Assembly: GCA_014237965.1 (NCBI GenBank) | Contig: JABABZ010000006.1 | Span: 1-35,455 of the forward strand | DNA length: 35,455 nt | From: Phycisphaerales bacterium | Lineage (GTDB): Bacteria > Planctomycetota > Phycisphaerae > Phycisphaerales > SM1A02 | Direction: 5' to 3' | Shown here: positions 3,558 to 15,291 of the stretch, piece by piece | Numbering within the stretch: the stretch's first letter is position 1 | How the letters are laid out: the number at the start of each line of letters is the position of its first letter | Translations under genes and position numbers: made by a program | The notes under the pieces: model-generated | Seen by the model: the letters and a program-made list of their open reading frames with translations, nothing else | Databases searched by the model: none | What the model was told of the DNA's origin: nothing

Positions 3558-4334
3558 TCAAGGCATGGAGAGGTCGGAATCATCGATTCCGGCGACCGCG
3601 ACATCCGCGATCGGAACGAGCGTGATACCACCCGCGGCTTCGACTCGGAGTTCGTACGCCTCTCCCGGTCGCATCGGCTTGTAGACCGCTTCGCCCTGGG
3701 CGACCCTGATCCCGGATCTCCGGGCCGCGTCGGGGTCCGAGGCGAGGGTCCAGAATCGGGACCAGATCGCCTGTTCGAATCGGGCCTGATCGCTCCCGGC
3801 ATATCCATCCGGGATTCCCCCCGGCGTGTCGATCGGAATACCGTCTCGGGGAGGAGTCTCGTCGGAGTAGATCCGGCGGAGGAGGACGATGGTCTGGTCG
3901 CGGAAGGGGTCGCTCGCCGAGGCCACGGTTTCGGAGGGAAATCGGGCCGTCCAGGCGTCCACGTAGATCACATCTCCGGGGAGTCTCATTTCACGGGAGG
4001 CGAGTTCACGACCCTCATCGTCGAGTTCGATGAAACGGAGGTCGGTCCAGGAGCCTTCTCCGTCCTGATCCTGGTCTTGATCCAGGACCTCGAGACGCGC
4101 GATTCGGCGATCCCGCCCAAGTCGATCGATGGCCGCATCTCGGACCGCGATTTCCGCCGCCATGCGGGCCTCGATGGCCGCAATCTCCTCACGGAGGCGG
4201 TTTTCCTGGTTCGTCGTCCACCAGGCCATCCCTCCGATCAGCAAGCCCCCGACCAGGACCACCATTCCAGTGACTCGCACCGACGCACCGACCAGGGCCG
4301 TACTCAGGGAAAACGTTGAAGGTGAAGGACTCAT
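3558..4334 (-). CDS. hypothetical membrane-anchored protein with a short coiled-coil
   Basis: One N-terminal TM (VRVTGMVVLVGGLLIGGMAWW) followed by RLREEIAAIEARMAAEIAVRDAAIDRL, then a periplasmic-type domain. ATG at 4334. Confidence 0.65.
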   Translation of the reverse strand: MSPSPSTFSLSTALVGASVRVTGMVVLVGGLLIGGMAWWTTNQENRLREEIAAIEARMAAEIAVRDAAIDRLGRDRRIARLEVLDQDQDQDGEGSWTDLRFIELDDEGRELASREMRLPGDVIYVDAWTARFPSETVASASDPFRDQTIVLLRRIYSDETPPRDGIPIDTPGGIPDGYAGSDQARFEQAIWSRFWTLASDPDAARRSGIRVAQGEAVYKPMRPGEAYELRVEAAGGITLVPIADVAVAGIDDSDLSMP

Positions 4335-4395
4335 GATTCGTCTTCTATCGGCCGTATGGCTCCAGTTTCGCGCGAAAAGTGCCGATATCGGACGC

Positions 4396-7119
4396 ATGCA
4401 CTTGTTGTTTTCCACGGGCCGATTCCGGACCCTGATCGGGATCGTGGCGCTTCTTTCGATTCCGGCCGAGGGTTCGGTGACGTCCGAGTCGGTCGGGACC
4501 GGGGTCGAGGCTCCGCCGGCCACCAGGCGGTTGATCCATCGCTTCGACTTCGAAGAGATCCAGAAGGCCGATTGGTCGCACGTCTTCCAGCAGGCTGACG
4601 GGCTTCCCCCCAAGGGTCGCTTCTTCACCGCCAACGTCGATGAGAACGAGCGCAGTCGTGGTGACTGGAGTCTTCGAGTCCACATCTTCGGAGGATCGGT
4701 CTCCTATCGAACCCGACCCGAAGTGCTTCTCCCGGCCAACGTCGATTCGCGTTTTCAACTCGTCGGTTCGGTACGAACTCTCGACCTGCAGCATTCTTCC
4801 GCCCGACTCGAGGTCCGACTCGTGGACGGCGATCTGCTCGATCGATCTCATGACGCAGGAATGTCCGACGCGATCGAAGTCGCCACGGTGGCATCCTTCG
4901 TCTCCGACGCGGTACGGACCGATGGTGACTGGAAGGAGCTGGTCGTCGATATCGATACGTCCGGCGAAGCATGCCGCGAAGCCGGAATCGATCTCCGATT
5001 CGTCGTCGCGATGCAGGTGACGCAACCCGGCTTCGAAGAAGAAGCCGGCATCCAGCGTACGGTCGCGGGTGATCCTCGAATCGAGGATGTCACCGGAACC
5101 GTCTGGTTCGATGACCTTGCGATCTGGCAGCTTCCGTGGGTCGATTTCAGATCCGTCTCGCCATCCGGCATCGTGCGGCATCCGCAGCCGGTCGAACTGC
5201 GCATCGCCGTGGACGATCCGATCGAACCGGTTCCCACCGTGACGCTCGAGGTCAGCGATCTCGATGGAAACGTCGTCGAACGGCGTCCCATTCGCGTGCT
5301 CTCGAGTGGTCGACCTCTGGTCGCCAGCGTGGAAGTGCCTCTTCCCGGTTGGTATCAAGCGCGTCTGCTGGTGAGCGGGTCGGGGCCGGAGAAGGCGGTT
5401 CGGGATCTCTCGATCCTCGTGCTCCCGGAGTCTGAAGAACGACGGTCCAGTGGCGTTCCCGCGCTCGGCTACTCGATTCCCCAGTGGAGTGCCGCGGACC
5501 TGGGTGGAATCGCGACGGTCATCGAGTGGCTCGATCCCGGCGCGATCGAGTTTTCGATCTGGCCCGAGGCCAATGACCAACTCACGAGCACCGATGCGAT
5601 CTCCGCGCTCAAGAAGGTCTTTGAACGGCAGCGGGCCGGATATCGCGAGCCGATGCTCGCCGTCGATCGTCTGCATCGAGGCCTGGCACGGGCGGCGAGA
5701 CTCAAGCCTCAGGAGGTCTATGCGGCGATGATGGGCGACGACTCGATCAGTCTCGCTTCCCTCGAGTCGTGGATGGATCGGTTCGGAACGATCGTCGATC
5801 GCTGGCGAATTCCCGGCGGGATTCGATCGGGGCCCGACCTCACGAACCTTCGAAGGGTGATGGGGGATCTCGTCGCCGATCCGATTCTGGCCATCTCGCA
5901 ACATCCCGACACGATCGACGACCGATGGGGCGACGAGCTCTTCGTGATGGGCAGGTCGGATCTCTCGGCGACCACGATGTCGGACATCTTCGCGGGAGGC
6001 GGCGTCTCGGGCGCGACGCTTCGCATCGAGACTCCCCCGGCCGACTGGATTGCTCGCGCGCGAGTGGATGCGGCGGCTCGCCGTCTGCTCGCGGCCTGGC
6101 GGTCCGATGCGGATCGAATTCTCCTCCCATGGAATCCGGGGTCCGGCCCCGATCCGACGATGCTTGCGTGGACTGGGCTGAGCCACGCGCTTTCGGGCCA
6201 TCGGTTCAAGGGCGAGATTCCGTTGTCGCCCACCGCCCGTTGCTGGATCGCGGGCGACTCCGATGCTTCACAGCTCGTCGTCTGGTCGGAACGGCAGGGT
6301 TCCGCCGAGCTCGTTCGCATTCCGGTTGGTGATCGGCCGGTCGATGTGCTCGATCTGGAGGGACGCGGTCGTCGCCTCGATCCCCGTGCAGGGATGATCG
6401 ATCTGGTGGTCGGATCCACTCCCCTGGTGATCCGTGGAGTGTCCGCCGCCGCGGTGCAGGTCGCCGCTCGAATGCAATTCGAACCGCAAGTGATGGACCT
6501 TGCCGCCGGACCGCAGAACGTCCACCTGCTGATTCACAATCCGACCGCGGTCGCATTGGAAGGCGAGGCGTCGATCGACGTTCCGCGTGGGTGGTCGATC
6601 GAACCGGCTCGACCCCGCGTGCGCATCGCCGCCGGGGAGACCGCTCGCATTCCCATCGAGATCCGCTGGACCACGCCGCCTGTCGCGGGGGAGATGCGAA
6701 TTCCCATCGCCGTCCTTCTCGAAGCCGATTCGACCCTCCGGTTCGAGACGGAGGTTCCGATGGAGGTTCGAAACGAGATCCTCGAGGTGCGGACCGACTG
6801 GGCGCTCACCACTTCGGCGGTCGACGGGAGCCCCGGGATCGTGGTCAGTGCCGAAGTGATCAACCACGGAGATCGACCCATGGATCTCCAGATGGAAGCC
6901 GTCGCCTGGCATTCCGGGCGCGAACGAAGGCCGATCTCCGCCTTGCAGCCCGGGGAGCGTGCGGTTCGACGATTCCATTTCAAGGGTGGGCTGGCTCGAT
7001 TGTCGCGAACCGACGTCCGGGTGATCATCACCGAGTTCGGCGGTCCGCTCGGTGTGACGTCCTTGATCCCGATCGCGGGCGGTTCGCAACGGGTCGATAC
7101 GGCATTGGTGGAGGAATGA
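4396..7119 (+). CDS. large secreted protein, possibly glycosidase-like with C-terminal beta-sandwich domains
   Basis: Signal peptide MHLLFSTGRFRTLIGIVALLSIPAEG; C-terminus NPTAVALEGEASIDVPRGWSIEPARPRVRIAAGETARIPIEIRW resembles NEW3/Ig-like domains. The ORF-track start (4129) overlaps the divergent gene; 4333 is an alternative start. Confidence 0.7.
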   Translation: MHLLFSTGRFRTLIGIVALLSIPAEGSVTSESVGTGVEAPPATRRLIHRFDFEEIQKADWSHVFQQADGLPPKGRFFTANVDENERSRGDWSLRVHIFGGSVSYRTRPEVLLPANVDSRFQLVGSVRTLDLQHSSARLEVRLVDGDLLDRSHDAGMSDAIEVATVASFVSDAVRTDGDWKELVVDIDTSGEACREAGIDLRFVVAMQVTQPGFEEEAGIQRTVAGDPRIEDVTGTVWFDDLAIWQLPWVDFRSVSPSGIVRHPQPVELRIAVDDPIEPVPTVTLEVSDLDGNVVERRPIRVLSSGRPLVASVEVPLPGWYQARLLVSGSGPEKAVRDLSILVLPESEERRSSGVPALGYSIPQWSAADLGGIATVIEWLDPGAIEFSIWPEANDQLTSTDAISALKKVFERQRAGYREPMLAVDRLHRGLARAARLKPQEVYAAMMGDDSISLASLESWMDRFGTIVDRWRIPGGIRSGPDLTNLRRVMGDLVADPILAISQHPDTIDDRWGDELFVMGRSDLSATTMSDIFAGGGVSGATLRIETPPADWIARARVDAAARRLLAAWRSDADRILLPWNPGSGPDPTMLAWTGLSHALSGHRFKGEIPLSPTARCWIAGDSDASQLVVWSERQGSAELVRIPVGDRPVDVLDLEGRGRRLDPRAGMIDLVVGSTPLVIRGVSAAAVQVAARMQFEPQVMDLAAGPQNVHLLIHNPTAVALEGEASIDVPRGWSIEPARPRVRIAAGETARIPIEIRWTTPPVAGEMRIPIAVLLEADSTLRFETEVPMEVRNEILEVRTDWALTTSAVDGSPGIVVSAEVINHGDRPMDLQMEAVAWHSGRERRPISALQPGERAVRRFHFKGGLARLSRTDVRVIITEFGGPLGVTSLIPIAGGSQRVDTALVEE

Positions 7120-7915: not shown

Positions 7916-10900
7916 ATGGGAATGACGACGTCGAAGACCCATGAAAGGCCTGGATCATCGTCGATTCCATCGAGTTCGTCTTCACGATTGGAAGCGAATC
8001 TCAGTGCGCTCGGGCCTCAGAACCACGCCGCCGCCGAGGCGATTCGATCATCGGCGGATCTTCCCATCGAGTTGGAGACGGCCGAGGATGGACGGCTCAC
8101 CGGCGTCTGGCAGGGGCGTCGACTCGCCAGTGCCCGTCGACCCGGGGAAGAGACGGCTCGCCTCATCGGCGACATCGACTATCGCGAGTCCGCATGCATC
8201 GTGGTGGCGGGATTCGGATTGGGAGATCATGTCGAAGCGATCGCCAGGCGTCTCGGTCGGACCGGCGTGCTTCTGGTGCTCGAAACGGATACGGCGCTCT
8301 TGAAGGCGGTCATGTCGAGATTCGATCTGACCGACTGGTTCAACCGGAGCCGACTCCTGCTCCGCGTGGATGAGAACGATGCGGCCGGGCTGGCGCTGGG
8401 ACTTCGCGGCTTCGAGTCGATCCTGATGCTTGGAACCTCGATCATCGAACATCCGCCGAGTCGAAGTCGTCTGAGCGACGCGACCGCCGTCTTCACTCGT
8501 TCGCTCGTCGACATCACCGCGACCGCTCGAACATCGATCTACACCGCATTGACCAGATGCAGTTCCACGATCGAGAACCAGCTTGCGAATCTCGATCGAT
8601 ACGCGATCGGATCCGGCATCGACGAACTCGCCGGCATCGCGGCAGGGCGTCTGGGAATCGTGGTCAGTGCGGGGCCGAGCCTTCGGAGGAACCTTCCGCT
8701 CCTCGCCGCCCCCGGAGTTCGTGATCGATGCGTGATCGTGGCGACGCAGACCACGCTCAAACCACTCCTGGCTGCCGGAGTCGCTCCCCACTTCGTCACC
8801 GCGCTCGACTATCACCCGATCTCGCGTCGCTTCTACGAGGGCATCGATCCCGTGGCGGTCGAGAACACCGAACTGATCATCGATTCGAAGGTGCATCGAG
8901 CGGTTCCCGAGGCGTGGCCGGGCAGGATCCGGTGCATTCCATCGCCGGAGCTGGATCAGTTCCTCGGCCCGCTGGCGGATGGTCATCCTCCGCTCGAAGC
9001 GTCGGCGACGGTCGCTCATCTGGCGTACGTGCTGGCACGTCACCTCGGTTGTGATCCGGTGGCGTTGATCGGGCAGGATCTCGGTTTCACCGACGGCCTC
9101 TACTACGCGCCAGGAACCGCGATCCATGACGTCTGGCTTCCGGAGCTCAACGCATTCAACACGATCGAGACCATGGAGTGGGAACGAATCGTCCGGCATC
9201 GCACCCACCTCGCGGAACGCGAGGACGTTCACGGGCGTCGCATCTTCACCGATGCGCAGATGTTGAACTACCTCCAGTTGTTCGAGATGCGGTTCACCGC
9301 CGATGTCGCATCGGGCCTGACCGTGATCGATGCGACCGAAGGAGGAGTACGGAAAGCCGGTGCCGACGCCCGGACCCTCGCAGACACGCTGGCCACCCAT
9401 GCGGGCTCAGAGCGAGAAGCCGTTCATCTCCCGCGGGCGAGCGAGGCCGATCCGACGCGACGTCCCGCCTTGATGAAGCGGCTCGAAGGGCTCGCCACGG
9501 AGATCAAGGAGGTCTCGAAGGCCTCCGACGAGACTCTGGAGATTCTCCGTTCCATGCTCGCAGCGCAGCGCGACGAACGTCGGATGAACCGCTTGTTCGA
9601 TCGACTCGCCACCATGCAGGAACTCGTTGCCGAGCGGGAGTCCGCGAGGAAGATCATCGACATCATCAATCAGGTCGGTGTCTACAAGAGAATGCGGGCG
9701 GATCGGCGGATCGAACTCTCGACCGATCTCGAACCTCACGAGAAACAACGGGCCGAGATCGAACGGGACATCGTCAACGTCGAATGGACCCGCGATGCAT
9801 CGAATCTGCTGGTTGATCTGATCGATCGCACCGGCGAGTCGATCCGCACCGGCGAATTCGTGGAACCAGCGCAGGATCTGACGGTCATCGAGCGAACCGC
9901 GGGAATCCAGCCTGCAGACACCAGCGAGGCGACCGTGATCGCGGTGGTCCCGGTGGATCCGGCGTTCGGTGGGACCGGCGTGTCTCGGAGTCTGGGATCG
10001 AATCTGGCCGATCGGTCCGTCTTTCGCCGCACGCTCGAACGCCTCGGAACCGCGACTGGAATCAAGGCGATCGTCCTGCTGGTGCCCGACGATTTCGATG
10101 TCGAAGACGCCTTCGATCCAACGCAGGTCGGGCTTCCGGTGGAGATCCACCGGTGCGGTGCACGCGTGTTCGGCCCGGAGCACGAAGCCATCCGTGTGGC
10201 GAGAGCGGTGGCGCCGACATCCTGGCGGGGTGGCATCCACGGGCTCACGGCGTTCGATGAAGTGTTGGCCCCCGGACCCACCGCCGAAGTGATGGAAGAA
10301 CTCGACGCCGATGCGGCGCTGTTGGTCGGGCCGGACTGGTCGCTCCTTCCCATCACCGGTCGCGGAGGCGTCGACGAACTGGTTCAGAGGTTCAGCGAAC
10401 GACCGAAGTCACCCTACGTGTTCGCTCAGGGGCCTCCGGGTCTGGCGGCGATGATCATCGGTCGGAGCACCGTGCATGCGATGGCGAATCGCCGATCCCG
10501 ATTCGCAACGATCGGGCATCTGCTTGGATATCGATCCGAGCGACCGCAGGGTGATCAGATCGTGGGGGATCTCTGTGTGTCGACCGACCCGACGGTGCGA
10601 AGTGCCATCGGTCGATTCACCGTCGATTCTCCGCGCCAGTTCATGAGGATTGGAAGAGCGATCGAGCCACTGGTCAGAGATGACCGGGCCGTCGAGCCGG
10701 ATGCCGCGGAACTCGCCGTCCGAATGGAGCATCGGATCATGACTGGTCCGTTGCTCTCTCCGCAGTTTCTTCGGGTGGAACTGACCACGGGCCGCGTCGG
10801 CGTGCACGCTGGAACGCCGCATGCCGGCGAGATCCAACGGGCGCCGATGGAGGAGTCGACCTTCCGGCGCATCGTCGAGTCACTCGGGAAGACCGGCGAT

Positions 10901-11614
10901 TCGACGCTGTTCCTGGATGGCGTCGGGGACCCACTTCTGCATCCGCGATTCGATGAATTCATCGAGATCGCGATCGATGCGGGCGTGCGGGTGGTCTCGC
11001 TTCGAACGGATCTGGCGGTCTCCGAAGACGTCGTTGATCGCCTTCTCGCGACCCGGGTCGGTGTGGTCGAGGTGGACCTCGATGCCGAGACGGCGGAGAC
11101 GCATCGACTCCTGCACGGCCCCGGCCACTTCGAACGAGTGATCTCGAATCTCGAACGATTGATCGCGGGCCGGAGGCGACTCGGTCCTTCGGTCGATGCG
11201 CCGTTGCCCATCGAACTGGACTTCGCACTTCCCTGGATCGTGCCGAGGTGCGTCCGACGGGTCGAGAACATCGCGGAGATCCCCGAGTTCTTCGAGCGAT
11301 GGCGACGAAGACTGGGCGTGGCGGTGATCGACGGGCCGGTCCGGTGGCCGGAATCCTATGGGGTCGATCCGGACCCGCTCAGTCGCACCTGGCCTCCGGC
11401 GCGGTACGACGAGGCCGTGAACGCCACCCGGATGACGATTCTCGCGGATGGATCCGTTCCGTCCGCGGAGACCGACTTGTTCGGTTCGACGAGCGTGGGA
11501 ATGGTCGGCGAGCGTTCGCTCCAGGACCTGTGGCAGGAAGTGGTGCAGATTCGCCGTCGAGACTCCGACGGCCGTTCGGGAACATCCATCCCATTCCAGC
11601 CGGCGAGGTCCTGA
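7916..11614 (+). CDS. fusion protein: MAF-type (DUF115/MptE-like) nonulosonate glycosyltransferase + nucleotidyltransferase-like domain + cysteine-less radical SAM/SPASM-like domain
   Basis: N-terminus: LGIVVSAGPSLRRNLPLLAAPGVRDRCVIVATQTTLKPLLAAGVAPHFVTALDYHP (DUF115 motif). Middle: ATVIAVVPVDPAFGGTGVSR...DADAALLVGPDWSLLP. C-terminus: FLRVELTTGRVGVHAGTPH...LDGVGDPLLHPRFDEFIEIAIDAGVRV...MTILADGSVPSAETDLFG...SLQDLW. GAGGAGG-type RBS just upstream. Confidence 0.8.
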   Translation: MGMTTSKTHERPGSSSIPSSSSSRLEANLSALGPQNHAAAEAIRSSADLPIELETAEDGRLTGVWQGRRLASARRPGEETARLIGDIDYRESACIVVAGFGLGDHVEAIARRLGRTGVLLVLETDTALLKAVMSRFDLTDWFNRSRLLLRVDENDAAGLALGLRGFESILMLGTSIIEHPPSRSRLSDATAVFTRSLVDITATARTSIYTALTRCSSTIENQLANLDRYAIGSGIDELAGIAAGRLGIVVSAGPSLRRNLPLLAAPGVRDRCVIVATQTTLKPLLAAGVAPHFVTALDYHPISRRFYEGIDPVAVENTELIIDSKVHRAVPEAWPGRIRCIPSPELDQFLGPLADGHPPLEASATVAHLAYVLARHLGCDPVALIGQDLGFTDGLYYAPGTAIHDVWLPELNAFNTIETMEWERIVRHRTHLAEREDVHGRRIFTDAQMLNYLQLFEMRFTADVASGLTVIDATEGGVRKAGADARTLADTLATHAGSEREAVHLPRASEADPTRRPALMKRLEGLATEIKEVSKASDETLEILRSMLAAQRDERRMNRLFDRLATMQELVAERESARKIIDIINQVGVYKRMRADRRIELSTDLEPHEKQRAEIERDIVNVEWTRDASNLLVDLIDRTGESIRTGEFVEPAQDLTVIERTAGIQPADTSEATVIAVVPVDPAFGGTGVSRSLGSNLADRSVFRRTLERLGTATGIKAIVLLVPDDFDVEDAFDPTQVGLPVEIHRCGARVFGPEHEAIRVARAVAPTSWRGGIHGLTAFDEVLAPGPTAEVMEELDADAALLVGPDWSLLPITGRGGVDELVQRFSERPKSPYVFAQGPPGLAAMIIGRSTVHAMANRRSRFATIGHLLGYRSERPQGDQIVGDLCVSTDPTVRSAIGRFTVDSPRQFMRIGRAIEPLVRDDRAVEPDAAELAVRMEHRIMTGPLLSPQFLRVELTTGRVGVHAGTPHAGEIQRAPMEESTFRRIVESLGKTGDSTLFLDGVGDPLLHPRFDEFIEIAIDAGVRVVSLRTDLAVSEDVVDRLLATRVGVVEVDLDAETAETHRLLHGPGHFERVISNLERLIAGRRRLGPSVDAPLPIELDFALPWIVPRCVRRVENIAEIPEFFERWRRRLGVAVIDGPVRWPESYGVDPDPLSRTWPPARYDEAVNATRMTILADGSVPSAETDLFGSTSVGMVGERSLQDLWQEVVQIRRRDSDGRSGTSIPFQPARS

Positions 11615-11677: not shown

Positions 11678-12442
11678 ATGAACGACGACGGCATCAAGAA
11701 CAACTGGGATCGCATCGCCACCGCGGTGGTGCTCGGTCGGGCGGGAAGCAAGGGGCTGCCTCGGAAGCACGTCCGTCTGGTGGCAGGCGTCCCGATGATC
11801 GCTCGGAGCGTGGGGCATGCATTGGCCGCACGGTCGGTCGGGCGCGTCCTCTGTTCCACGGACGGTGAAGCGATCGCCAGTGCCGCTGCGGCGGTCGGCG
11901 CGGAGATCGTCGATCGCCCCGCGTCGCTCGCCGGCGACCTGGCGACGGTCGATTCCGCCGTTCGACAGGCGGTGGAAACCGTGGAAGACACGTCGGAGAT
12001 CGTGGTCATCCTCTACGGGAACATTCCGGTTCGACCTGCAGGTCTCATCGACCGAGCGGTGGCCCGACTCGTCGAGACCGATGCGGACAGCGTGCAGAGC
12101 TACTCTTCAGTCGGCAAGCACCATCCGTTCTGGACCTGCCGGGTCGACGACGAAGGACGCGTCGGCGCCTGGGAGGAGAACGATGTCTTCCGAAGGCAGG
12201 ATCTTCCGGCGGCGTACATCCCTGACGGCGGGGTCATCGCGGTGAAACGCGAATCCTTGTTCCAGATCGATCCGGCCCGGCCTCATGCCTTCCTCGGACT
12301 CGATCGCCGGGGCGTGCTCAACCCGCGTGGATCGGTGATCGACGTCGATGACGAGATCGACCTTCTCGTGGCGGAGGCGATTCTCCAACGCTCCCAGAGC
12401 GATCACGGAGTCGCCGAGGCCCGGTCCGGAGTGCATGCATGA
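11678..12442 (+). CDS. acylneuraminate cytidylyltransferase family protein (CMP-nonulosonate synthetase-like)
   Basis: AGSKGLPRKHVRLVAGVPMIARSVGHAL, VLCSTDGEAIASAAAAVGAEIVDRPASLAGD, C-terminal VIDVDDEIDLLVAEAIL; next to neuB/neuC-like genes. Confidence 0.85.
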   Translation: MNDDGIKNNWDRIATAVVLGRAGSKGLPRKHVRLVAGVPMIARSVGHALAARSVGRVLCSTDGEAIASAAAAVGAEIVDRPASLAGDLATVDSAVRQAVETVEDTSEIVVILYGNIPVRPAGLIDRAVARLVETDADSVQSYSSVGKHHPFWTCRVDDEGRVGAWEENDVFRRQDLPAAYIPDGGVIAVKRESLFQIDPARPHAFLGLDRRGVLNPRGSVIDVDDEIDLLVAEAILQRSQSDHGVAEARSGVHA

Positions 12443-13479
12443 TGCAGGCCCAACTCCGCATCGGCGAACGCTCGATCGGAGCGGCGTCACCGACCTACAT
12501 CATCGCGGAGATCGGCGTCAATCATGACGGCAGCGTCGAGCGCGGTCTCGAGTTGATCGATGCGGCGGCGGGAGCCGGGGTGGATGCCGTGAAGTTCCAG
12601 TGGTTCGAGGCCGACCGACTGGTGGGTGATCCGAATGCGGTCGCCGCCTATCAGCGCCGGTCGAAGATTGACGATCAGCGAGCCATGTTGCAGGGTCTCG
12701 AGATCGATGCGGCGGGAATGGAGCGATTCATCCAGGCGTCTCATGATGCCGGACTGGATGCGCTGGTGACCGTGTTCAGCGTCGAACTCGTGAGTGTCGC
12801 CAGATCACTCGCCTGGAATGCCTGGAAGACGGCATCGCCGGATCTCGTGCACCGACCGCTTCTTGAAGCGCTCGCCGAAGATGGGAGGCCGATGCTGGTC
12901 TCCACCGGCGCGGCCGATCTTGAAGAGGTCCGTCGCACCGATCAGTGGTTTCCCGAGGCACCCATCGCATTCCTGCATTGCGTCAGCGCCTATCCGACTC
13001 CGGAATCGGAAGCGTCACTCGGAGCGATCGGAAGCATCGCCGACGCGACAGGCCGTCCCGTCGGTTACAGCGATCACACGACTCTGGAGACCACCGGGGG
13101 GCTCGCGGTCGCCGCCGGCGCTCGCCTCCTCGAGAAGCATCTCACCTGGAATCGATCCGCCGAAGGCCCGGATCACGCGGTGAGTCTCGATCCGGAAGGT
13201 CTGACTCGGTTCGTCGACTTCAGCAGGAGGGCTCGGGAGGCGTTGGGAACTGGGGTCAAGAAGGCATCGACGATCGAATCCGATGTTCGAAGCGTGGCGC
13301 GACAGTCGGTGCGGGCGGCACGAGAACTCCGACCGGGTGTGGTGCTTGCGGCGAGCGATCTGGCCGTGAAGCGACCTGCCGACGGCCTTGAACCCTGGCG
13401 ACTGGACGAGATCGTGGGGCGGACCCTCCGAACGACCCTCGAACCGGATGCGCCGATCCGTGAAGAGGATCTCGCGTGA
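12439..13479 (+). CDS. N-acetylneuraminate synthase family protein (NeuB/LegI/PseI-type) with C-terminal SAF domain
   Basis: YIIAEIGVNHDGSVERGLELIDAAAGAGVDAVKFQWF, STGAADLEEV, LHCVSAYPTPESEASLGAI, VGYSDHTTLETTGGLAVAAGARLLEKHLTWNRSAEGPDHAVSLDPEGL; C-term SVRAARELRPGVVLAASDLAVKRPADGLEP (SAF/antifreeze-like). ATGA overlap with the upstream gene. Confidence 0.92.
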   Translation: MMQAQLRIGERSIGAASPTYIIAEIGVNHDGSVERGLELIDAAAGAGVDAVKFQWFEADRLVGDPNAVAAYQRRSKIDDQRAMLQGLEIDAAGMERFIQASHDAGLDALVTVFSVELVSVARSLAWNAWKTASPDLVHRPLLEALAEDGRPMLVSTGAADLEEVRRTDQWFPEAPIAFLHCVSAYPTPESEASLGAIGSIADATGRPVGYSDHTTLETTGGLAVAAGARLLEKHLTWNRSAEGPDHAVSLDPEGLTRFVDFSRRAREALGTGVKKASTIESDVRSVARQSVRAARELRPGVVLAASDLAVKRPADGLEPWRLDEIVGRTLRTTLEPDAPIREEDLA

Positions 13480-14588
13480 TGCGGAGGATCGCGGTGATCA
13501 CCGGCTCACGGGCGGACTTCGGACTGCTCCGAAGCACCATCGACGCCGTGGAGGCGCACCCGGATCTCGAGTTGCAGATCGTCGCGTCGGGCGCACATCT
13601 GCTTCCTCCCGATCGCACCATCGAGGAGGTGCGGTCTCAGGTCCGAGTCGACGCCGTCGTTGAAATGCAGAAGCCGGAGGTCTTCGGAAGATCCGCGGAT
13701 GCCGCCGCGCTCGGTCGCGGTGTGTCGGGATTCGCGGAGGTGTTCGATCGAATCGATCCGCAGGTGGTGTTGGTCCTCGGCGATCGAATCGAAGCCTTGG
13801 CGGCGGCGAGCGCGGCGAGCATCGGGGGTCGGACGCTGGCCCATGTGCACGGAGGCGATCGAGCCGAGGGTGTGGCGGACGAAGCGATGCGCCATGCGAT
13901 CACGAAGCTGGCACACCTCCATTTCGCCGCGACCGAGGAAAGCGGCGAGCGAATTCGCCGGTTGGGTGAGGCGCCGCCCACGGTGCACGTGGTCGGAAGT
14001 CCCGCGATCGATGGTCTCGAAGAGATGGCGTCACTGGACGACGCCCGTCATGCCGCCTGGGGAAGTCCGTCGGCCGTTCTCCTGATGCACGGCGCCGGGC
14101 AGTCTCCGGCGACCGAACGCCGGTGGGTGGAGGTCGCCCTCCAAGGGGTTCGGCGGCATGGTCCCGTCGCGGTTCTTCGGCCCAATCAGGACCCGGGAAG
14201 CGAATTCGTCGAGCAGGCGCTGATGGCCGTCGAGACGGATCCAGACATCGAAGTCATCGGTCATCTCGACCGTCCGTCGTTCATCGGGCTTCTTCGGCGA
14301 GCGGATGTTCTGGTCGGAAACTCGAGCGCGGGGCTCATCGAGGCCGCGGCGCTGGGATGTCCGGCGGTGAATCTCGGACCGCGTCAGGCGGGTCGCGAAC
14401 GTCCGGCTTCGGTCATCGAGGTCGATACCCCGGACGTCGATCGGATCGCGCGTGCAATCGAGGAAGCCGTCTCGGGAAGGACGTCGTGCGACCATCCGTA
14501 CGGGAGTGGTGGCGCCGGAGGTAGAATCGCCGCCGTGCTCGGTCAGTGGGCGATCGAAGGCCCGCCGCGCAAGCGGAACGCGTTCTGA
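13476..14588 (+). CDS. UDP-N-acetylglucosamine 2-epimerase (hydrolysing, NeuC/LegG-type)
   Basis: AVITGSRADFGLLRSTI, VLVLGDRIEALAAASAA, DEAMRHAITKLAHLHFAATEESGERIRRLGE, VGNSSAGLIEAAALGCPAVNLGPRQAGRERP. GTG at 13476 or ATG at 13479. Confidence 0.9.
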   Translation: MMRRIAVITGSRADFGLLRSTIDAVEAHPDLELQIVASGAHLLPPDRTIEEVRSQVRVDAVVEMQKPEVFGRSADAAALGRGVSGFAEVFDRIDPQVVLVLGDRIEALAAASAASIGGRTLAHVHGGDRAEGVADEAMRHAITKLAHLHFAATEESGERIRRLGEAPPTVHVVGSPAIDGLEEMASLDDARHAAWGSPSAVLLMHGAGQSPATERRWVEVALQGVRRHGPVAVLRPNQDPGSEFVEQALMAVETDPDIEVIGHLDRPSFIGLLRRADVLVGNSSAGLIEAAALGCPAVNLGPRQAGRERPASVIEVDTPDVDRIARAIEEAVSGRTSCDHPYGSGGAGGRIAAVLGQWAIEGPPRKRNAF

Positions 14589-14634
14589 ACAGACGGGCCC
14601 TCCGCCACCTTCGAACCCCTCCTGGACTTCCTTG

Positions 14635-15291
14635 ATGCGAGAGAATGCCGGATCCGTCACCTCCCGGACCGCCACGGTCGAACTGCCCCTGCTCGTGGAC
14701 ACTCCGGACGCTTGGGCGGAGGCGGCGCTTCGCGAGCCCTGCGCCCTCCTGAACGATCACGCCCATCTGGAGAAGAAAGCCGCTCAGAACGCGCTCGAGC
14801 TCCTGCACCGATGGCCGGAACCGACGCCTCCCGACAACTGGGTGGTGGCGATGACCGCAGTGGCCCGAGACGAGGTCGAGCACCTCGCACTCGTCGTCCG
14901 GCTTCTCTCCAGGCGGGGAGGGCGGCTGACCAAGTCGCATCGAAACGACTACGCGGCGGCGCTTCGTGGATTGATCCGTCGCGGTGGCGACGAGGAGACC
15001 ATCGATCGCCTGATGATCTCGGCGCTGATCGAGGCGAGATCCTGCGAGCGATTCGAGATCCTGTCACGAGTGGCGACGGACGAGGCCCTGGCCAAGGTGT
15101 ACAAGGCGCTTTGGGCGAGCGAGAAGGGGCACTATCTGTCCTTCATCGATCTGGCACGGCAGGTCGCCGCGCTCGAAGGCGATGACGAGGCGGCCGCGGT
15201 GGAGGATCGCTGGCAGTCGATGCTGGTGGAGGAGCGAACCATCATCATGAATCAGAAACCGGGTCCACGGATGCACTCCTGGGTGGTCTGA
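14635..15291 (+). CDS. miaE: tRNA-(ms[2]io[6]A)-hydroxylase MiaE-like diiron protein
   Basis: LLNDHAHLEKKAAQNALELL, MTAVARDEVEHLALVVRLLSRRG, SALIEARSCERFEIL, LWASEKGHYLSFIDLA: spacing of ferritin-like diiron Glu/His ligands typical of MiaE. Confidence 0.85.
   Translation: MRENAGSVTSRTATVELPLLVDTPDAWAEAALREPCALLNDHAHLEKKAAQNALELLHRWPEPTPPDNWVVAMTAVARDEVEHLALVVRLLSRRGGRLTKSHRNDYAAALRGLIRRGGDEETIDRLMISALIEARSCERFEILSRVATDEALAKVYKALWASEKGHYLSFIDLARQVAALEGDDEAAAVEDRWQSMLVEERTIIMNQKPGPRMHSWVV

Follow-up and report, generated by a model that had tools for sequence, protein, structure and literature searches.

A predicted radical SAM fold without its cluster cysteines, fused to a Maf-type flagellin glycosyltransferase in a Phycisphaerales bacterium

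Radical SAM enzymes require three cysteines to hold the radical [4Fe-4S] cluster, and dead families of this superfamily have been little described. Our literature search found no paper treating a dead radical SAM family, and the superfamily goes unmentioned in a recent review of pseudoenzymes; the title of one NCBIfam model, TIGR04347 (pseudo-SAM/SPASM, haloarchaea), already describes a radical SAM/SPASM-like protein without radical function. The named family closest to the protein described here is TIGR04321 (spiro-SPASM, named in no paper found by the literature search), with which it shares the order of an N-terminal domain, a radical SAM region, and a C-terminal twitch/SPASM part. The twitch domain of BtrN binds one cluster through four cysteines, and this auxiliary cluster persists in BtrN variants whose radical-cluster cysteines have been exchanged (PMC9012708). 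Maf enzymes transfer CMP-activated nonulosonates to serine or threonine residues of flagellin, and the flagellin features that they recognise have been little studied (PMC11339370). The literature search returned no relevant paper tying radical SAM proteins to flagellin glycosylation.

The window (the whole stretch of DNA analysed, 35,455 nucleotides from a Phycisphaerales bacterium) contains an open reading frame at 7916-11614 encoding a 1232 a.a protein. Using Pfam, AlphaFold2/Foldseek, and profile searches, we determined its domain order as Maf, nucleotidyltransferase-like, radical SAM barrel, and twitch remnant, with the following features:

7916..9889, + strand: Maf-type flagellin glycosyltransferase part, aa 1-~658 (PF01973, E 2.5e-29)
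9908..10660, + strand: nucleotidyltransferase-like domain, aa ~665-915 (Foldseek match to 6oew, weak profile match, conservation in the family)
10760..11320, + strand: pseudo-radical-SAM barrel, aa ~949-1135 (PF04055, AlphaFold2, Foldseek, cysteine columns, dN/dS)
10793..10795, + strand: R960, cluster cysteine position 1 (alignment column)
10805..10807, + strand: H964, cluster cysteine position 2 (alignment column)
10814..10816, + strand: T967, cluster cysteine position 3 (alignment column)
10919..10945, + strand: GGE-like loop GVGDPLLHP, aa 1002-1010 (alignment)
11321..11545, + strand: twitch remnant, aa ~1136-1210 (family profile matching the BtrN twitch domain, alignment columns)

The N-terminal part carries the MptE-like/MAF_flag10 domain of Maf flagellin glycosyltransferases (Pfam PF01973 at aa 221-393, 102.7 bits against a cut-off of 34.6) and a weak match to a PseD-type NCBIfam model (aa 247-587). 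While the Pfam search of the protein gave no match in the next domain, the AlphaFold2 model of aa 665-1232 also matched the cytidylyltransferase 6oew via Foldseek (target TM 0.67), the first part of the family profile weakly recovered 6oew again among solved structures (E 0.0016), and a WRGGI..T..DE stretch within the domain is conserved across the family. The basis for calling aa ~665-915 nucleotidyltransferase-like is a predicted structure together with a sequence match that is weak. Upstream of the fusion lies a 996-aa open frame (4129-7119) with no Pfam match over the cut-off and no NCBIfam match.

By predicted fold and descent, residues 949-1232 belong to the radical SAM superfamily and form a partial beta/alpha barrel. 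The Radical_SAM model PF04055 matched aa 979-1083 over its gathering cut-off (E 3e-7 with the whole protein, 3.6e-8 with the domain alone), and many NCBIfam radical SAM/SPASM models matched, the best being TIGR04321 (45.1 bits). AlphaFold2, given the window protein and nine relatives, modelled aa 665-1232 and aa 941-1232 with a pTM of 0.75 for either segment, and placed a small beta-hairpin domain after six beta/alpha units. With the aa 941-1232 model, all 50 among the Foldseek matches listed were radical SAM enzymes (probability 1.00), the best among those listed being DesII, SuiB, BlsE, and BtrN; BtrN and BlsE were recovered by sequence profile search as well. The agreement of Pfam, NCBIfam, and Foldseek rules out a chance match as the source of the assignment. 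A tblastn search against plasmids yielded just distant radical SAM matches covering half of the query.

Relatives were gathered from genome contigs, class, order, and phylum (Planctomycetota), and the register of the cluster motif was set by an alignment of 142 domains, comprising 130 family members and 12 canonical radical SAM relatives. The sequence-only reading had aligned the CxxxCxxC positions to R960, H964, and T967, and its open reading frame, residue numbers, and codons proved correct on rechecking; these columns hold cysteine in 12/12 canonical relatives, while the triad is missing from all 130 family members, 129 of which have no cysteine at any of the three columns (L022, with one, is the lone exception). 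Writing cysteine into the three positions of the window protein raised the score of TIGR04317 from 43.9 to 53.6 bits and of TIGR04545 from 33.3 to 41.3, a gain of 8-10 bits for the best radical SAM models that serine did not produce. The first position is arginine in 94/130 relatives; the second and third vary across the family. The GGE-like loop, GVGDPLLHP, is indeed retained with Asp as its acidic residue, compared to Glu in 11/12 canonical relatives; across the family, its glycines are kept in 96–98% and the Asp in 84% of members. Given that the cluster cysteines are absent, and that the single cysteine in the region (in VPRCVRR) is at no cluster position and is accompanied by no other group of cysteines, radical SAM chemistry by the window domain is very unlikely.

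The earlier description of a radical SAM/SPASM layout held for the barrel; the C-terminal part of the family matched the BtrN twitch domain (E 2e-8, profile against solved structures) and appears BtrN-like rather than a full SPASM domain, and such a domain should hold one auxiliary cluster. At the four twitch ligand columns, 12/12 canonical relatives have cysteine, as do 61-71 of the family's 130 members. None of the four is cysteine in the window protein, where two columns read E1166 and A1184 and the remaining two (the final CxxC) lie beyond the shortened C-terminal end. The reading of the SPASM 'PC..D..G' position as PSAETDLFG was thus right about the absent cysteine and one residue out in its placement, the cysteine column being A1184, not S1183.

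The unfused relatives (~560 aa) comprise the nucleotidyltransferase-like domain, the dead radical SAM domain, and a twitch part with its four cysteines kept. Twitch cysteines are kept in 55/56 unfused genes adjoining maf and lost in 53/54 genes fused to it; these counts mostly go back to one event, in which fusion and loss of the auxiliary cluster nearly coincide. L152 represents a separate fusion to maf with the twitch cysteines kept. A second apparent case (L102 in genome G149) was rejected, as a long open frame had misled us; maf is in another frame and the gene is unfused. L123 (genome G039) is unfused, has lost the twitch cysteines, and has as its neighbour not maf but a gene of the peptidyl-arginine deiminase type.

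In a tree rooted with the canonical relatives, a starred branch sets the family apart from them. On this tree, obtained by a quick search with the cysteine columns left out, no bootstrap, and a small canonical sample, loss of the cysteine triad requires one change and loss of the twitch cysteine set two. One ancient loss would explain the missing triad throughout the Planctomycetota family, and the order of changes suggests an ancient loss of the radical cluster, with the second cluster disappearing at a later stage. Neither this two-step loss nor the nucleotidyltransferase-like domain featured in the sequence-only reading. Three Maf fusions (L158, and L159 and L160 of genus g16, family f2) have a heavily eroded radical SAM-like part, with the Maf and nucleotidyltransferase-like parts still matching. 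We considered L142 (565 aa, cysteines present) as a full-length counterpart that is still active and rejected it, since its match is limited to the radical SAM/twitch part. L148 is a canonical radical SAM/twitch protein that runs on into a carbamoyl-phosphate-synthase-like domain.

Comparison of the window protein with four close relatives (L002-L005) gave dN/dS values of 0.046–0.086 for the barrel, 0.08–0.14 for Maf, 0.10–0.13 for the nucleotidyltransferase-like domain, and 0.13–0.18 for the twitch remnant, with a fast-evolving tail past aa 1210. The barrel was lowest in 4/4 comparisons; it is under strong purifying selection and more constrained than any other part. Together with the predicted fold, the shared cysteine loss, and its single change on the tree, this supports the earlier proposal that the fold was kept after radical chemistry was lost.

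The fusion is followed directly by three genes of nonulosonate synthesis type, of which the NeuB- and NeuC-type genes each have a 4-bp overlap:

11678..12442, + strand: CMP-sugar synthetase-like gene, NeuA/PseF type (PF02348; TIGR03584 PseF, 85 bits, under the cut-off)
12439..13479, + strand: NeuB-type nonulosonate synthase (PF03102 and SAF; TIGR03569, 276 bits, under the cut-off)
13476..14588, + strand: NeuC-type UDP-GlcNAc 2-epimerase (PF02350; TIGR03568, 291.6 bits, over the cut-off)

A MiaE-like tRNA hydroxylase gene comes after these (14452-15291, its listed start overlapping the NeuC-type gene). With flagellin genes also present in the window's own genome, nonulosonate transfer to flagellin by the Maf protein is plausible. 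In the fetched stretches, maf is fused to the module or is its same-strand neighbour at 110/121 family loci, compared to 0/12 canonical radical SAM loci; seven of the 11 relatives without maf in the fetched stretch come from other classes of the phylum. Like the twitch cysteine counts, these figures carry no correction for common descent. Among 151 genomes of the order, counted by hand from two tables and resting on the totals printed there, 109 have both module and flagellin, 5 the module alone, 16 flagellin alone, and 21 neither (Fisher p 1.7e-11, with shared ancestry ignored). Among the 16, several are either incomplete genomes or members of genus g16, which has an eroded copy. In four genomes with the module and no detected flagellin (L056, L057, L065, and L103 in G102, G371, G353, and G155), Maf is also diverged, matches poorly, or is undetected, as though the fusion now served a different role. 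Given the 11/121 loci without maf and the five module genomes without detected flagellin, some copies have a different purpose or have moved.

We consider the module in the window most likely to be a twitch-type radical SAM descendant without its radical cluster, serving Maf-type flagellin glycosylation as a non-catalytic accessory, most likely by binding, and give this a probability of about two in three; we infer both its non-catalytic nature and its ligand. A Planctomycetota ancestor would have lost the radical cluster and kept one auxiliary cluster, as a separate gene beside maf; in the window lineage, this gene would then have fused to maf and lost the auxiliary cluster as well. The nucleotidyltransferase-like domain and the dead radical SAM domain would together form an accessory module for Maf, in which the inherited pocket or the barrel surface may keep either the CMP-activated nine-carbon sugar or the flagellin acceptor in place for Maf; stabilisation of Maf by the module is another conceivable role. 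The strong selection and the Maf linkage argue for such a binding or organising role in nonulosonic acid transfer, and we counted the presence of sugar-acting radical SAM enzymes (DesII, BlsE, and BtrN) among the best structural matches in its favour. The scaffold for glycosylation suggested by the sequence-only reading accordingly gains its glycosylation setting from the Maf fusion or adjacency, the NeuA/B/C-type genes, and the flagellin co-occurrence, while we infer the substrate-binding or scaffolding role itself. A broader version, which we hold tentatively and at clearly less than even odds, is that the disarmed radical SAM class is, phylum-wide, a dedicated specificity or donor-handling Maf subunit with a repurposed pocket (Arg for the first Cys), its radical cluster lost once early and the other at fusion.

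The most serious alternative, which seems to us unlikely, is that the module kept catalysis of a non-radical kind: for example, its nucleotidyltransferase-like domain might work on a nucleotide-sugar, or its old barrel pocket might employ SAM or a different nucleotide (methyl transfer, epimerisation, or hydrolysis). The GxGD/E loop, the first-strand E, and the W/D/G core positions are conserved through the family, selection acts more strongly on the barrel than on any other part, and the frequent Arg at the first cluster position could bind phosphate or carboxylate; however, in the family alignment we found no newly conserved residues of a catalytic type near the former cluster site, and the second and third cysteine positions are variable.

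Less probable again is that the unfused relatives are redox or iron sensors acting through their single auxiliary cluster, with the fused forms keeping the structural part of that role only. The four twitch cysteines kept in unfused genes, and the ability of cysteine-replaced BtrN to retain its auxiliary cluster (PMC9012708), would fit such a role, but it cannot directly explain a window protein with 0/4 twitch cysteines. We give still less credence to a functionless C-terminal module being lost after fusion: the family f2 and genus g16 lineages do have clearly eroded radical SAM parts, and evolution past aa 1210 is fast, but in the window's lineage decay is contradicted by a barrel dN/dS lowest of the whole protein and below the Maf part in every comparison, with reading frames open in all close relatives compared. 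A sequencing or assembly error concealing the cysteines can be set aside, as identical replacements occur in independent genomes and contigs and across the phylum.

The living lineages show a stepwise loss, first of the radical cluster and then of the auxiliary cluster, with a fold that stays strongly selected. The locus also hints that flagellin glycosylation in Planctomycetota has one more component; acceptor recognition by Maf is poorly understood. The unfused forms are natural proteins predicted to carry the auxiliary cluster only, useful for probing that cluster's own role.

Compared to the described systems, TIGR04347 matched the window protein weakly (12.6-13.4 bits, cut-off 525). The TIGR04321 cut-off of 250 bits is reached by no member here (window protein 45.1; best relative 176, an unfused Phycisphaerae protein aligned over model positions 80-506 of 510); its profile rewards cysteine by ~9.7 bits at the three radical SAM positions and ~26 bits at the four twitch positions, and its seed, judged from the profile, seems to hold cysteine at the three positions in some members at least. 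The sugar-acting BtrN, BlsE, and DesII share the barrel with the window domain, and BtrN the twitch fold also, but these enzymes have a radical cluster and catalysis, whereas the window domain has neither cysteine set. With the Maf flagellin glycosyltransferases (PF01973), the window protein shares the central Maf domain, within aa 1-~658; the solved Maf structure (PMC11339370) has three domains and is without the nucleotidyltransferase-like and radical SAM-like extension that the window protein carries.
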